Positions 2,663 to 34,720 of a stretch of DNA of 64,000 nt are shown piece by piece. A program made the translations under genes and the position numbers. Position 1 is the stretch's first letter; each line of letters starts with the position of its first letter. The stretch lies in the NCBI GenBank assembly GCA_905233135.1, contig CAJOCQ010000007.1:1-64000 (forward strand), written 5' to 3'. The DNA comes from an uncultured Selenomonadaceae bacterium (GTDB lineage: Bacteria > Bacillota > Negativicutes > Selenomonadales > Selenomonadaceae). The notes below the pieces were generated by a model that had not been told where the DNA came from, searched no databases, and saw nothing but the letters and a program-made list of their open reading frames with translations.

Positions 2663-4840
2663 ATGCTTGATTTTATATTAAATTTTTTCAAAAACAAATA
2701 CCGCGTCAAGGTTCCTACTATTTTACAAATGGAGGCTACTGAATGCGGCGCAGCTTCTCTTTCTATGATTTTTGCTCATTACGGTTTATGGCTCCCGCTC
2801 GAAACTGTAAGAATTGAATGCGGCGTAAGCCGTGACGGCTCTAAGGCTAGTTTTATTTTACGCGCCGCGCGTCATCGCGGCTGCCAAGCCAACGGCTATA
2901 AATTTTCCGCCGACAGAATTAAAGAACTTAATATTTTCCCGCTGATTATTCACTGGGAATTTAATCATTTCGTTGTCCTTGAAGGGATTAAAGGCGACAC
3001 GGTTTATTTGAATGACCCCGCTACAGGCAGGCGCACTGTTCAATGGAAAGATTTTCGCACTTCGTATACGGGCGTTGCTTTGAATATTGTACCGGGCGAA
3101 AATTTTAAAAAGGAAGGCGCACGCTTCAACGTTTTTAAAGAAGTTGCCAAAAAACTTTTGCACGATAAGCCCGCGCTGGTTTTTATTTTGCTTTTAAATT
3201 TGGGTATGATAATTCCCGGCTTGGCGTCGCCTGTCTTCACTCAAATTTTTATGGACGATATTTTGACGAAAAAGCACCCCGATTGGTTTTTTAATTTTAT
3301 GTTGGCAATGACGGTATCGTTTATAGTTTGCGGGGTAATGTCATTTTTGCAGGCGGTAATTTTGACGCGGTGGCAACGCAAATTGACGCTTGCGGATTCG
3401 TCAAGTTTTTTTTGGCATTTGTTAAAACTGCCAATGCAATTTTTCCAGCAACGCTACGCGGCGGAAGTTGCAAGCCGCGTAACTTTCAATGAATCTGTTG
3501 CAGGCGTACTTTCGGGACCTGCCGCAACTGCAGTTTTAGATTTATTGGTTGCCGTATTTTATTTATTGTTGCTGTTGCAATATGACGTTACTTTAACATT
3601 AATCGGCGTAGCGTTCAGTGCGCTGGATCTTGTAGTATTTTTTGCACTGCGCCGACATTTGACTGATTTAAATATGAAGATTCAGCAAGACGCGGGCAAA
3701 TGTTACGGCGTTACTATGAATGGGCTTTCTATGATTGAGACTATTAAGGCTACTGGCGCGGAAGCGGATTTTTTTGCGAAGTGGGCGGGCTACAAAACCA
3801 AAGTGCTTGCCGCTTCGCAAGACGCCGCGCTATGGTCTATGACTGCTACTATCATTCCTACTCTTCTTGGCGGCATTAACGGCGCGCTGATTATGACGCT
3901 TGGCGGCTTTTCCATTATGGACGGCGCGCTTACTGCCGGTATGTTTATGGCTTTTCAATCGCTTATGGGCTCTTTCCAAGCTCCTGTCAATGCTCTTTTG
4001 GGCTTAGGCTCCACCTTGCAATCTACTGAAATGCAGATGCAACGCCTTAATGACGTTCTTAACTTCCCTGCCGAAAAGACTAATTCTACCGCCGACTTTA
4101 ACTCTCATTTAAAGGGCGAACTTCAACTCAAAGACATTACTTTCGGCTATTCCCCGTTGGACAAGCCGCTCATTACCGACTTCAATTTACACCTCAAGCC
4201 GGGTCGTTGGGTAGCTATTGTTGGTGCCAGCGGCAGCGGCAAGAGTACTGTTGCCAAGCTTGTTACCGGTTTATATAACATTTGGGCGGGCGACATCCTT
4301 TTTGACGGCAGACCTCGTACTGATTATGATCCTACTGCTTTTCATAATAGTATTGCTGCCGTTGACCAAGATATTTTCTTATTTAGCGGCGATGTCAATC
4401 ACAACATTTCGCTCTTTGACGATTCCATACCGAAGGCTGACATTATTCAAGCCGCTAAGGACGCCTGTATTTTTGACGACATTACCGCGCTTGATAAAGG
4501 CTTTGATTCTACTGTTTCTGAAGGCGGCTTTAATTTTAGTGGCGGTCAACGCCAACGTTTAGAGATTGCTCGCGCCTTGGCTGTTAATCCTTCACTTCTC
4601 ATTCTTGACGAGGCTACCAGTGCTCTTGACCCTGTTACTGAATTAAACATTCTTCAAAACATTCGCAGGCGCGGTTGCAGCTGTTTAATTGTTGCTCACC
4701 GCCTTAGCACTATTCGCGACGCTGATGAAATTATTGTTCTTCAACGCGGCAGGATTATTGAACGCGGTACTCACCAACAACTTATCGACTCACGCGGATA
4801 TTATTTTTCGCTGATACAGGAGCGTGATACTGATGAATAA
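2663..4840 (+). CDS. NHLM-type peptidase-containing ABC exporter (C39 peptidase/permease/ATPase)
   Basis: A 725-aa bacteriocin exporter that would cut leader peptides at a double-glycine-type site and export the core. Domains in order: C39 peptidase (about 1-140) with Gln22, catalytic Cys28 in ATECGAA, His in NHFVVLEG near residue 100 and Asp in LNDPATG; an ABC membrane domain (about 160-450); an ATPase domain with Walker A GASGSGKST near 520, signature FSGGQRQR near 630 and Walker B LLILDEATS. All catalytic residues are present. The start ATG has AGGAG upstream. The gene overlaps the next exporter gene by 8 nt. Codon use swings from pyrimidine-ending to purine-ending and back within the gene. 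Confidence 0.9.
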   Translation: MLDFILNFFKNKYRVKVPTILQMEATECGAASLSMIFAHYGLWLPLETVRIECGVSRDGSKASFILRAARHRGCQANGYKFSADRIKELNIFPLIIHWEFNHFVVLEGIKGDTVYLNDPATGRRTVQWKDFRTSYTGVALNIVPGENFKKEGARFNVFKEVAKKLLHDKPALVFILLLNLGMIIPGLASPVFTQIFMDDILTKKHPDWFFNFMLAMTVSFIVCGVMSFLQAVILTRWQRKLTLADSSSFFWHLLKLPMQFFQQRYAAEVASRVTFNESVAGVLSGPAATAVLDLLVAVFYLLLLLQYDVTLTLIGVAFSALDLVVFFALRRHLTDLNMKIQQDAGKCYGVTMNGLSMIETIKATGAEADFFAKWAGYKTKVLAASQDAALWSMTATIIPTLLGGINGALIMTLGGFSIMDGALTAGMFMAFQSLMGSFQAPVNALLGLGSTLQSTEMQMQRLNDVLNFPAEKTNSTADFNSHLKGELQLKDITFGYSPLDKPLITDFNLHLKPGRWVAIVGASGSGKSTVAKLVTGLYNIWAGDILFDGRPRTDYDPTAFHNSIAAVDQDIFLFSGDVNHNISLFDDSIPKADIIQAAKDACIFDDITALDKGFDSTVSEGGFNFSGGQRQRLEIARALAVNPSLLILDEATSALDPVTELNILQNIRRRGCSCLIVAHRLSTIRDADEIIVLQRGRIIERGTHQQLIDSRGYYFSLIQERDTDE

Positions 4841-15501: not shown

Positions 15502-15543
15502 CCAAAAAAAATTGGCGAAAAATTCCGCGCGGAAAATTTCGCC
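15502..15543 (-). terminator. Terminator of the TPP riboswitch
   Basis: Reading the minus strand, GGCGAAA ... TTTCGCC (15543-15514) forms a long stem with a CGCG centre, followed by eight U (about 15511-15504). It lies between the aptamer and thiT, the standard place for transcriptional attenuation. Confidence 0.8.
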
Positions 15544-15557
15544 TTTTTTTTATAAAA

Positions 15558-15640
15558 TTTCCTACGTCGGCATTATCCGAATCAGGTATAGCGGTCGAAG
15601 TTCCAAACTTCCTCTCAGCCTGTTTACAAGCTCCCAAAAA
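15558..15640 (-). ncRNA. TPP (THI-box) riboswitch
   Basis: On the minus strand the conserved aptamer elements appear in order: GGCTGAGAGG, then TACCTGAT, then GGATAATGCC and ACGTAGGAA. These are the diagnostic thiamine-pyrophosphate-binding segments. The downstream terminator and thiT gene complete a classic OFF switch. It begins about 15 nt beyond the 3' end of the tannase gene. Confidence 0.95.
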
Positions 15641-15655
15641 TATTCAGTTGTCAAT

Positions 15656-31856: not shown

Positions 31857-32363
31857 ATGAAACTGAAAACGGTTATAAAGCGTTCGGGAAATCCCGTTGA
31901 GTACGACCGAGAAAAAATTTTTAATGCAATAGCCGGCGCAAATAACGACGCTACAACGGCGGCTGACAAATTGCGGCAAGCTGACATTGAAAAAGTTGCA
32001 AATGCAGTTGAACTTGAAATTTCGGAGCGCGAAAGTATCAGCGTCGAAGAAATTCAGGACGAAGTGGAGAAGGCTTTAATGGCGAACGGCTTTTTTGATG
32101 TGGCGAAACAATTTATAGTTTACCGCCAAAAACATTCTCAACGCAGAATTGCGCAGAAAAAGTTAATGGACACTTACAAAGATATTTTCTTTGCGGATTC
32201 TGTAAGCGTTGACTTGAAACGCGATAACGCCAACATTAACACCGATGCTTCAATGGGGATAATGTTAAAACTCGGCGCGGAAGGCGCAAAGCATTTTGTT
32301 GATAATTACGTTTTGCCTGAAGAATTTGCAACAGCAGACAAAGAAAACTGGATTCATATCCAT
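31857..32363 (+). CDS. nrdD: Anaerobic ribonucleoside-triphosphate reductase, exon 1
   Basis: The first 169 codons of class III ribonucleotide reductase, which makes deoxyribonucleotides under anaerobic conditions. It contains the ATP-cone domain (about residues 1-90: VIKRSGNPVEYDREKIFNAI ... ) and the start of the catalytic domain, ending in WIHIH at 32363. Reading straight on gives a stop within six codons, but joining to 32647 restores the family sequence, so this is an exon. Spliced length is 169 + 56 + 503 codons, giving 727 aa, the usual size. Start ATG at 31857 follows AAAGGAGAG. Confidence 0.9.
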
Positions 32364-32646
32364 GAAAAAGTTGTGGCGTAACGTGGCGACACGTTATGGA
32401 AAATCGGGTGAACTCAAAAATTTGAGGTGTCTTGCCGACGCTTTTTTGGCGGAATTGCAGGAAATGGCAATTTGCGGCAAGGCTGACAGGGAATGCTTTT
32501 TTAGAGAATCCTGTGCTAAGACTTTTAAAAAAAGTAAAGTTAATCGACTATCGAAAGCTGAAAAGCAAGTAGAGTAGGTTTTTGGCGAAATTCCAAATTC
32601 CGAAGTGCCCGAAGTCTCTTTGAGATTATGATATAGTCAGAATTAG
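32364..32646 (+). ncRNA. Group I intron 1 in nrdD (283 nt)
   Basis: Core elements of a group I self-splicing intron are seen in order: P AATTGCAGGAAA (32453-32464), Q AATCCTGTGCTAAG (32507-32520), R GACTAT (32546-32551) and S ATAGTC (32633-32638), R and S being complementary (P7). The 5' exon ends in U and GTGG within the first 20 intron nt can pair with its CCAU end (P1 with U-G). The intron ends in G. It has no homing endonuclease gene. Removing it joins HIH to DKDFS in frame. Confidence 0.88.
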
Positions 32647-32814
32647 GACAAAGATTTCAGTTTAATAACTTTGAATTGCTGTCAAATTGATTTGTTGAAA
32701 CTTTTTCACGGCGGCTTTTCGACGGGACACGGTTTCCTGCGCGAGCCAAATTCAATTCGTTCGTATGCTTCTTTAGCGTGTATCGCAATACAAAGCAATC
32801 AAAATGATATGTTT
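32647..32814 (+). CDS. nrdD: Anaerobic ribonucleoside-triphosphate reductase, exon 2
   Basis: Fifty-six codons lying between the two introns. They read DKDFSLITLNCCQIDL ... GFSTGHGFLREPNSIRSYAS ... IQSNQNDMF, all conserved catalytic-domain sequence of NrdD. The exon begins with GAC at 32647 and ends with TTT at 32814; both junctions leave the reading phase intact (168 nt). Neither flanking end is a translation start, so this stretch is coding only after splicing. Confidence 0.88.
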
Positions 32815-33211
32815 CATAGCGGGACACTTTTGCAGTGATGCAAATGCACAAACTCTCCTTTAACCGCTTGCCGGCGGGTGTCTCCTTTTGGAGGCTAACA
32901 GGGAAGGTCAAATATTTTGTAGTGTGATAGTGTAATAGTTTGATAGTTTTTACTATTCCACTATCCAACTATACCACTATCCAACTACAATGAACGCCGT
33001 ATTTGAATAATCCTGTGCCACGTTTTTTACAAAAACAGGTCAACAGACTAGAGAAAGGATATCGACCGCATAAGGGTTTCAGCTTTATCAACTGATTAAT
33101 CGAAAATAACCGAGTATCGTAGCGGCACTATTGGCACGCGCCGCGAAAATGGAGCGTCTCATTTTTGAACACTTGAGACGGAGATATAGTCGGCTCAGAA
33201 ATTTCTGAACG
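32815..33211 (+). ncRNA. Group I intron 2 in nrdD (397 nt)
   Basis: A second group I intron with Q AATCCTGTGCCACG (33009-33022), R GACTA (33046-33050) and S TAGTC (33187-33191, within GATATAGTC). GGGACA early in the intron can pair with the exon end UGUUU (P1). The last base is G. Removing it joins NDMF to GGQSINAFDYAMAEG in frame. Peripheral sequence at about 32927-32987 is an added inverted repeat of GTAGTGTGATAGT-like units. No ORF is present. The Q/R/S elements match intron 1, so the two share ancestry. Confidence 0.87.
32927..32987. repeat. Short-repeat hairpin inside nrdD intron 2
   Basis: Tandem GATAGTGTAATAGT-like units on one arm and ACTATCCAACTATACC-like units on the other form a long imperfect inverted repeat around TTTTT. 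It lies outside the group I core elements, so splicing need not be harmed. Confidence 0.65.
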
Positions 33212-34720
33212 GGCGGGCAAAGCATAAACGCTTTTGATTATGCTATGGCCGAAGGCGTCAGGAAATCTTTTAAAAAAATCATAAAGGCGGAACTTTTGCG
33301 GGCTTGCGAATTTTGCGACATTACCCCCGCCGCCGATATTGATTTTAATATTTGTACTTATTCGGAAGGTGATAATATTGCAGCCGTTGAAAATTTAACT
33401 ACGGTTGTAGGTTCAAAAAAATTGGCAGAAAAAATTTATCGTCAAGCTTGCAAGGACGTTGAAGAGGAAACTCATCAAGCTATGGAGGCGTTGATTCATA
33501 ATTTTAACACTTTGCACAGCCGCGCAGGAGCGCAAGTTCCCTTCAGCTCAATAAATTATGGAATGGATACAAGCGCAGAAGGACGCCTTGCAACGCGCGA
33601 AGTTCTTAACGCAATAGAAGCAGGGCTCGGCAACGGCGAAACTCCAATTTTTCCAATTTCTGTTTTCCAACTTAAAGCGGGAGTTAATTATAATGTTGGC
33701 GATAAAAATTATGATTTATTTCGGCAAGCTTGCCGCGTCAGCGCAAAAAGACTTTTCCCAAATTTTGTAAATCTTGACGCGCCGTATAATCTGCAATATT
33801 ACAAACCGGGCGATTATAACAGCTACGTTGCAACGATGGGGTGCCGTACGCGCGTTATGTCAAATGTAAACGGCGCGGAACAATCCGGCTCGCGCGGCAA
33901 TTTTTCTTTCGTAACAATTAACTTGCCGAAACTTGCACTTGAGGCGAAGGGCAGCATTGACGAATTTTTCAAGCTTTACGACAAATATATTACAATTTGC
34001 CACGATTATTTATTGTTCCGCCTTAAAACCATTGAAGAAAAGCACGTTTATAATTTCCCGTTTTTAATGGGACAAGGCGTTTGGATGGATTCAGATAAAC
34101 TTAAACCAACAGATAAAATTAAGGAAGTTTTAAAGCACGCCTCCTACTCAATCGGTTTTTGCGGGCTTGCAGAATGTTTGGTTGCGTTAATCGGCGAACA
34201 TCACGGGCAAAGCGAAAAGGCTCAAGAACTCGGCTTGAAGATTGTTAAACACCTGCGCGAACGTACCGATGAATATACCAAGCTTGAAAAAAGAAATTGG
34301 ACAACTTTTGGCACGCCCGCAGAATCTACCGCCGGGCAATTCCAGCGCGCCAATCGTAAACAGTACGGAATTATTAAAGGCGTCACAAGCCGCGATTATA
34401 TGACTAATTCAAGTCACGTACCTGTTTACTTCCCAATTACCGCGCATAAAAAAATTCAGATTGAGGCACCGTACCACGCCCTTTGCAACGCGGGACATAT
34501 TGCATATATCGAAATGGACGGCGACCCTACAAAAAATCTTTCGGCATTTGAAGCGATTGTCCGCGCTATGCACGACGCAAATATGGGCTATTTTTCAATC
34601 AATCATCCTGTTGACCGCGACCCTGTTTGCGGCTACACGGGGATTATTGCCAACGAATGCCCGCACTGTCACAGAAAGGAAATTGAGCGCGGCACTTTCC
34701 ATATTGCGCGGATTTTATAA
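33212..34720 (+). CDS. nrdD: Anaerobic ribonucleoside-triphosphate reductase, exon 3
   Basis: The last 503 codons of NrdD, from GGQSINAFDY to the end. It carries the bulk of the catalytic barrel and, near the C-terminus, the glycyl-radical segment DPVCGYTG followed by a Cys-rich metal-binding motif (CPHCHR). An ATG at 33245 is not the real start: the frame begins at the splice junction and continues from exon 2. The activating enzyme NrdG is not encoded directly downstream. The gene ends at a strong hairpin terminator. Confidence 0.92.
   Translation, partial: GGQSINAFDYAMAEGVRKSFKKIIKAELLRACEFCDITPAADIDFNICTYSEGDNIAAVENLTTVVGSKKLAEKIYRQACKDVEEETHQAMEALIHNFNTLHSRAGAQVPFSSINYGMDTSAEGRLATREVLNAIEAGLGNGETPIFPISVFQLKAGVNYNVGDKNYDLFRQACRVSAKRLFPNFVNLDAPYNLQYYKPGDYNSYVATMGCRTRVMSNVNGAEQSGSRGNFSFVTINLPKLALEAKGSIDEFFKLYDKYITICHDYLLFRLKTIEEKHVYNFPFLMGQGVWMDSDKLKPTDKIKEVLKHASYSIGFCGLAECLVALIGEHHGQSEKAQELGLKIVKHLRERTDEYTKLEKRNWTTFGTPAESTAGQFQRANRKQYGIIKGVTSRDYMTNSSHVPVYFPITAHKKIQIEAPYHALCNAGHIAYIEMDGDPTKNLSAFEAIVRAMHDANMGYFSINHPVDRDPVCGYTGIIANECPHCHRKEIERGTFHIARIL

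Follow-up and report, generated by a model that had tools for sequence, protein, structure and literature searches.

The chromosomal nrdD gene of an uncultured relative of rumen bacteria very probably carries two independent group IA-like introns, both lacking an open reading frame (ORF), whose self-splicing would restore NrdD and which would descend from mobile, site-specific lineages. The gene lies in the 64,000-nucleotide stretch of a draft genome that was analyzed here (the window), where it occupies positions 31857-34720 and is interrupted by two inserts of 283 and 397 nt. This reading draws on the coordinates and frames of the inserts, on their structure and its covariation, on introns at the same sites in related genomes, on empty sites and a patchy distribution among those genomes, and on selection acting on the exons.

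The uninterrupted NrdD of Quinella sp. 1Q7 (L056) served as reference for a junction search that spanned both gaps. For the first insert, the junction 32363|32647 at codon 169 (site A) was one of three near-ties and was picked by the rule that the upstream exon ends in T and the insert in G; for the second, 32814|33212 at codon 225 (site B), there was no tie. At both junctions the upstream exon ends in T and both inserts end in G, and the joined sequences IHIH|DKDF and QNDMF|GGQS agree with the Quinella protein. Joining the three exons (Table 1) gives 2184 nt, that is, 727 amino acids plus a stop, with no internal stop codon. A preliminary description of this DNA had proposed two group I introns in a chromosomal nrdD and an intact spliced protein of 727 residues; the junction search reproduced its coordinates to the base, and the joined exons gave the protein it had described. 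Read-through from exon 1 reaches a TAA at 32379 and from exon 2 a TGA at 32836, and an intein reading of the inserts was rejected, as no open frame runs through them.

The source genome (G000) is a 2.45-Mb draft, 86% complete, and is placed in the same genus as G043, a genome with an nrdD identical (100%) to the one in Quinella sp. 1Q7. A Pfam NRDD search of the draft returned this locus only, as three separate matches. A contiguous nrdD elsewhere, which would have made the present copy look like a dead fragment, was not found in the 86% of the genome that is covered, and a profile search of the same draft gave no match to a class I or class II ribonucleotide reductase (RNR) large subunit. The gene is apparently the sole RNR gene of the cell; at 86% completeness, another nrd gene could be missing from the draft. 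Automatic gene calling will tend to render such an nrdD as fragments, as illustrated by the single NRDD gene that appears here as three matches. Elsewhere in the window, a TPP riboswitch at 15542-15647 on the minus strand scored 61.2 bits, above its Rfam cut-off.

Table 1. Positions of the nrdD exons, the two inserts and their predicted RNA elements in the window
Feature	Position	Strand	Details
nrdD exon 1	31857-32363	+	169 codons, ends ...IHIH; pN/pS 0.17-0.21 against three relatives
Intron 1 (site A, codon 169)	32364-32646	+	283 nt, after ...IHIH; probable ORF-less group I intron; RF00028 27.3 bits over model positions 1-253; covariation; 9 further genomes of the genus have an intron at this site
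P1 of intron 1	32360-32376	+	exon CCAU + G (32360-32364) with UGUGG (32372-32376); U.G at splice site, in 5 of 5 sequences
P3 of intron 1	32404-32612	+	UCGGGUG (32404-32410) with UGCCCGA (32606-32612); two-sided changes in 2 of 7 pairs
P4 of intron 1	32486-32514	+	ACAGG (32486-32490) with CCUGU (32510-32514); P/Q region; invariant in 5 sequences
P7 of intron 1	32546-32638	+	GACUAU (32546-32551, R) with AUAGUC (32633-32638, S)
P7.1 and P7.2 hairpins of intron 1	32557-32601	+	between P7 and the P3 3' strand
P8 of intron 1	32613-32627	+	
nrdD exon 2	32647-32814	+	56 codons, DKDFS...QNDMF; pN/pS 0.06-0.08 against three relatives
Intron 2 (site B, codon 225)	32815-33211	+	397 nt, after ...NDMF; probable ORF-less group I intron; match to the site-A model with filters off; helix counts over site-B introns
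P1 of intron 2	32810-32826	+	exon UGUUU (32810-32814) with GGACA (32822-32826); U.G at splice site; 29 of 30 cells paired, 6 sequences
Shortened hairpin of intron 2	32880-32895	+	GUCUCC/GGAGGC; between P3 and P4
P5-like hairpin of intron 2	32908-32914 / 33000-33006 (arms)	+	loop holds the 71-nt palindrome
Palindromic repeat	32919-32989	+	octamer arms; occupies the P5-like hairpin loop
P7 of intron 2	33046-33191	+	GACUA (33046-33050) with UAGUC (33187-33191)
P3 3' strand of intron 2	33151-33154	+	
P8 of intron 2	33156-33179	+	
P9 of intron 2	33195-33208	+	
nrdD exon 3	33212-34720	+	GGQS... to stop; Pfam NRDD PF13597, E 4e-136; pN/pS 0.12-0.13

The general Rfam model RF00028 matched intron 1 over its full length, with 27.3 bits (E 1.2e-4) against a curated cut-off of 50, and intron 2 over only part of the model, at 11 bits (E 4.5). 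The RF00028 check suggested in the preliminary description gave a match to intron 1, though under the cut-off, and a lower score still for intron 2. The gathering threshold of this model is a limit of detection and not a feature of the ribozyme, and Rfam was rejected as the sole test, as intron 2 would have been missed. A custom covariance model, R1, was built from five site-A introns, with intron 1 among the five and intron 2 outside. It gave 347.4 bits for intron 1, one of its own five sequences. With default filters R1 missed intron 2; with filters off it matched 32811-33191 at 32.0 bits (E 3.7e-11), the next best match being 2.4 bits. Seven other site-B introns scored 42.0-80.8 bits, including one truncated at the end of its contig. 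No further intron copy was found in the source genome by a filtered R1 search, which also missed intron 2 (best other match 13.8 bits, E 0.12). The group II model RF00029 had no match at E 1 in 32200-33400, and the same model was positive in another nrdD locus of the genus (L164). Both inserts possess the group I core helices P3, P4, P6, P7 and P8, with P7 formed from R and S, and the P1, Q and R/S elements and the terminal G noted at the outset were found in both. With the Rfam scores below the cut-off, the relatives decide: helices covary among introns at the same sites, and both inserts can be assigned to group I. They are probably self-splicing and would belong to a group IA-like family.

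The site-A structure was counted on five site-A introns without a long ORF and comprises P1-P4, P6-P8, P7.1, P7.2 and three extra hairpins between P3 and P4. Among its 71 pairs, 98.3% of 348 cells were paired and 15 pairs showed two-sided changes; shuffled controls had a mean of 5.0, with none of 500 reaching 15, and slid controls gave 0-3. Two-sided changes were present in P3, in P6 and in three of the seven pairs of P7.2, and P4 and P7 were invariant in the five sequences. The site-A and site-B structures were partly drawn by eye on the very sequences counted, and P1, P4 and P7, which hardly vary, say little. Subgroup IA (IA2) is defined by P7.1 and P7.2 lying between P7 and P3, and this arrangement is predicted for intron 1.

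Counts over five or six site-B sequences gave these paired cells: P2 (30 of 30, two-sided changes in 5 of 5 pairs), P3 (20 of 20; 2 of 4 pairs), P5 (40 of 42; 6 of 7 pairs) and P6 (30 of 30; 5 of 5 pairs). P4 and P7 were invariant, P8 was read by eye, and the U.G pair at the splice site occurs in all six site-B sequences. All five of the site-B introns compared with intron 2 have a second hairpin with a AGGAAAUG-type loop, and intron 2 lacks it. The palindrome of intron 2 is absent from the site-B intron of G011, and nine other places are listed for it in the source genome. The dispersed palindrome, whose arms consist of degenerate 8-base repeats (TAGTGTGA-like), is also frequent in two further genomes (G064 and G050). 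Matches to mir-8536 at 32914-32993, below the cut-off and on both strands, were taken to mark the dispersed palindrome and not a microRNA.

A rival explanation is that the inserts are group I introns by origin that now splice poorly and that nrdD is a decaying pseudogene. Besides the hairpin lost and the 71-nt palindrome gained by intron 2, the missing endonucleases of both introns and the weak scores with RF00028 would fit this explanation. However, the changes in intron 2 keep its helices paired and lie in peripheral loops, and the 727 joined codons contain neither frameshift nor stop. Furthermore, all three exons are under purifying selection (pN/pS 0.06-0.21 against three relatives), and no other RNR was found in the genome. 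Decay of the gene is very improbable.

The preliminary description had also supposed that one of the two introns probably arose from the other, and the comparison of the introns does not support this part. Transposition of intron 1 within this nrdD to give intron 2, or the reverse, would be in keeping with the presence of one intron family at both sites, as R1 matches the site-B introns including intron 2 of the window, and with the 85 bits that intron 1 shares with the site-B intron of G011. In ORF-masked blastn, however, intron 1 came closest to introns that other members of the genus have at site A (226-311 bits), intron 2 came closest to site-B introns (110-378 bits for four), and the two introns shared only 27 bits with each other. 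Both site lineages also coexist in a single phage contig (L202, described below). Transposition within the gene is very improbable. The two introns appear, from these similarities, to be members of one family that parted before meeting in this gene.

Sixty-six genomes of the genus were examined, of which 65 had an nrdD match; in several, the end of a contig truncates the match. The window genome included, a site-A intron was present in 10 of the 66 and a site-B intron in 6; these counts leave out one of the 11 site-A candidate genomes (G011) and four of the ten site-B candidates (G050, G064, G066 and G020), in which only a piece of another intron or the repeat had been matched. As first described, both window introns are ORF-less, with no ORF of at least 80 amino acids starting from ATG in either. 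The accompanying claim that they have no endonuclease of their own held for the window copies and does not extend to their same-site relatives. Of the ten site-A introns, five have lengths of 738-898 nt and contain ORFs of 166-237 amino acids, with an HNH_3 domain (34.2 bits) in the one tested. Two of the five complete site-B introns have ORFs of 215 and 177 amino acids (HNH_3 at 21.3 and 19.2 bits against a cut-off of 24.8), and a third complete one is equally long and has no ATG ORF of 80 amino acids. Because same-site relatives carry HNH-type ORFs, loss of the endonuclease is the likely reason why the window introns are ORF-less.

Introns are not confined to these two sites. Intron-type inserts were present in at least 20 of the 65 genomes with nrdD, at ten sites (codons 136, 169, 217, 225, 326, 334, 408, 434, 435 and 653), and the single nrdD of G023 (L164) holds five of them. 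The codon-136 site, a group II intron, and the codon-326 site both come from G023. In this locus, the codon-136 insert of 2.2 kb has a group II intron domain at its end (RF00029, 52.8 bits, 3636-3720 minus in stored coordinates); the gene also has an intron at site A, another of site-A-like type near codon 326 (55.6 bits, oriented 4095-4428) and inserts at codons 334 and 435. By an R1 match combined with reading, its 657-nt insert near codon 334 consists of two introns with a short exon between them. At codon 333.67 there are inserts in L171 (2024-2315), L174, L175, L176, L177 and L179, and the second part of the L164 insert also belongs here. In these inserts the last base is G, the preceding exon closes with U, and a P1 of CAGGU/GCCUG may form, as judged by eye. 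Three of them have long ORFs, with LAGLIDADG in the one tested. They had no Rfam match at E 0.05 and no convincing R1 match, the lone match of 16.9 bits lying in the codon-434 intron of L174.

Inserts of an intein kind were tallied in the nrdD of 13 genomes, at codon 327 or 435. They comprise L182-L189, L168, L169 and L180 at codon 434.67 and L190 and L191 at codon ~327. One insert from each site was searched for intein domains, and the other 11 were assigned by size, site and frame. The codon-327 insert tested scored 56.1 bits, over the Pfam intein-splicing cut-off; the codon-435 insert tested scored 22.4 bits against a cut-off of 35.8, with LAGLIDADG_3 and Hom_end above theirs. The insert in G061 (L191) has a stop codon.

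On a quick tree of the nrdD 3' exon (67 rows, leaving out G078 and the second G056 copy, both too short, and G077), presence of the site-A intron required 8 changes for 8 carriers and that of the site-B intron 5 for 5. The codon-334 insert required 5 changes for 7 carriers and the codon-435 intein type 10 for 11. G011, with three introns, shows little nrdD difference from its well-supported sister G002, with none. The distribution of inserts in the genus points to recurrent gain and loss. Eight genomes (G007, G015, G016, G021, G051, G053, G055 and G056) have two different nrdD copies, and in G015, G016, G051 and G053 one copy is uninterrupted and the other interrupted.

A NrdD scan of IMG/VR yielded ten contigs, two of which have an interrupted nrdD: L201 (281,186 bases), with an in-frame insert at codon 327 besides four introns, at codons 169, 373, 408 and 434, and L202 (238,219 bases), with introns at codons 169, 225, 434 and 653. 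Every one of these introns ends in G after an exon T, with junctions set by eye. Both contigs have terminase large-subunit genes, and L202 also has a phage RNA polymerase subunit; phrog_2 (terminase large subunit) was found in three of four viral records, and PF03237 (2 records) and PF04984 (4 records) had no match in the viral contigs. The site at codon 327 in L201 is one used by the intein-kind inserts of the genus. RF00028 matched two L202 introns, at codons 653 (33.8 bits) and 434 (31.6 bits), and at E 0.05 had no match to the phage introns at sites A and B; R1 gave 80.8 bits for the site-B intron of L202.

A second viral search returned 24 contigs, among them L262 (12.8 kb), which has an ORF-bearing insert at site B, and others that are interrupted near codons 333 and 435. 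L263 has an intron close to site B; by reading, its position is two codons upstream of that site, and it was not counted as same-site. A viral query with the L201 NrdD returned only its own contig. Blastn of both window introns against phages gave short core matches only, in 7 records. A scan of the viral contigs for the site-A endonuclease found no relative, and its comparison with named phages gave only distant HNH matches (27 records, all below 60% identity). A short core pattern occurred in 51 stretches of the viral contigs, none with other core elements, and these were set aside as chance matches.

The introns shared between the genus and the phages could have been inserted separately at the most conserved codons, without any exchange. 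The sites sit in conserved NrdD motifs, and the phage introns resemble their best same-site match in the genus only moderately (25-124 bits). Moreover, the L202 introns at codons 434 and 653 find their best genus match at another site (653 by 1 bit), and one same-site case, at codon 408, leads by only 2 bits. On the other hand, for five of the seven phage introns the best genus match is at the same site, and the two phage site-A introns score 121.2 and 107.4 bits with R1, more than any intron located at a different site. The genus and the phages have five intron sites in common, to the base: 169, 225, 408, 434 and 653. Separate insertion seems to us rather unlikely. The broader proposal is that a single site-specific intron pool, together with an intein-type insert, is common to the chromosomal nrdD of the genus and to that of large phages and moves between the two by homing, and that the apparently sole RNR gene hence depends on splicing elements traded with phages; on this our judgment is evenly divided. 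The nrdD gene looks like a meeting point for the mobile introns of bacteria and viruses.

The steps that we infer, namely splicing, self-catalysis, homing with its direction and loss of endonucleases, would run as follows. The nrdD mRNA would be transcribed whole, and translation from each upstream exon would halt a few codons into the intron (at 32379 and 32836), before the core. A review describes the same halt of translation inside the intron, before the core, for many group I introns (PMC3984707). Each intron would then fold, and guanosine-initiated self-splicing would join exons 1, 2 and 3 to give a 727-residue class III RNR. Both introns may come from mobile, endonuclease-carrying lineages specific to HIH|DKD and DMF|GGQ, which homing would have spread through the nrdD of related bacteria and through that of large phages, where they occupy identical sites. 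Both copies in the window would have lost the endonuclease gene, and intron 2 would additionally have gained the genome-dispersed palindrome in a peripheral loop.

Exchange of introns between bacteria and phages has so far been argued from subtype distribution and from the likeness of some introns. For example, more than half of viral introns are reported to be IA2, otherwise significant only in bacteria, and transfer was suggested (PMC11835236). In the present genus, a single gene provides many same-site introns, some with an endonuclease and some without, alongside empty sites in close kin and related introns at matching codons of large phage contigs. As these occur together, transfer, loss and homing become directly testable.

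Group I introns in RNR genes of phages and of some chromosomes are well known. The T4 nrdD gene (sunY), likewise of class III, resembles the present case in its group I intron, for which the annotation gives group 1A, and the link to T4-like phages that had been drawn at first was borne out by R1, which matches the T4 nrdD intron (L321:3158-3362, minus strand) at 31.0 bits. However, T4 nrdD is a phage gene, its intron has a GIY-YIG endonuclease, I-TevII, and the intron lies between aligned exons ending at reference codon 254 and resuming at 320, not at 169 or 225. Lazarevic reportedly described, in 1998 and 2001, introns and an intein in RNR genes of Bacillus phages and prophages. These are similar in the gathering of introns and an intein in RNR genes and differ in being phage or prophage genes. 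Other cases concern nrdE and nrdF of Bacillus and nrdE of cyanobacteria, which we take to be class I RNR genes. Group I introns occur in these genes and in Bacillus recA; those in the RNR genes share with the window introns a chromosomal RNR location, some resemble phage introns, and the passages available from this source name no chromosomal nrdD among the intron-bearing RNR genes (PMC3984707). No description of introns in a chromosomal nrdD was recognized in the literature searched, which comprised titles, abstract starts and passages, with most subscription journals outside. In the Jug group of huge gut phages, nrdD is fragmented in 95 of 104 genomes by group I introns, endonucleases and intein-type inserts, and 37 of 76 predicted introns of three genomes were supported as spliced by metatranscriptome reads (PMC12393476). 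Compared to the window, these are phage genomes, with Bacteroides/Phocaeicola as predicted hosts (PMC12393476). Splicing of the window introns is predicted from their anatomy and their relatives, and the nearest experimental support comes from the split genes of these phages, which include nrdD. The present case is unusual in the dense spacing of sites within a single essential chromosomal gene and in its site-by-site match with phage nrdD.
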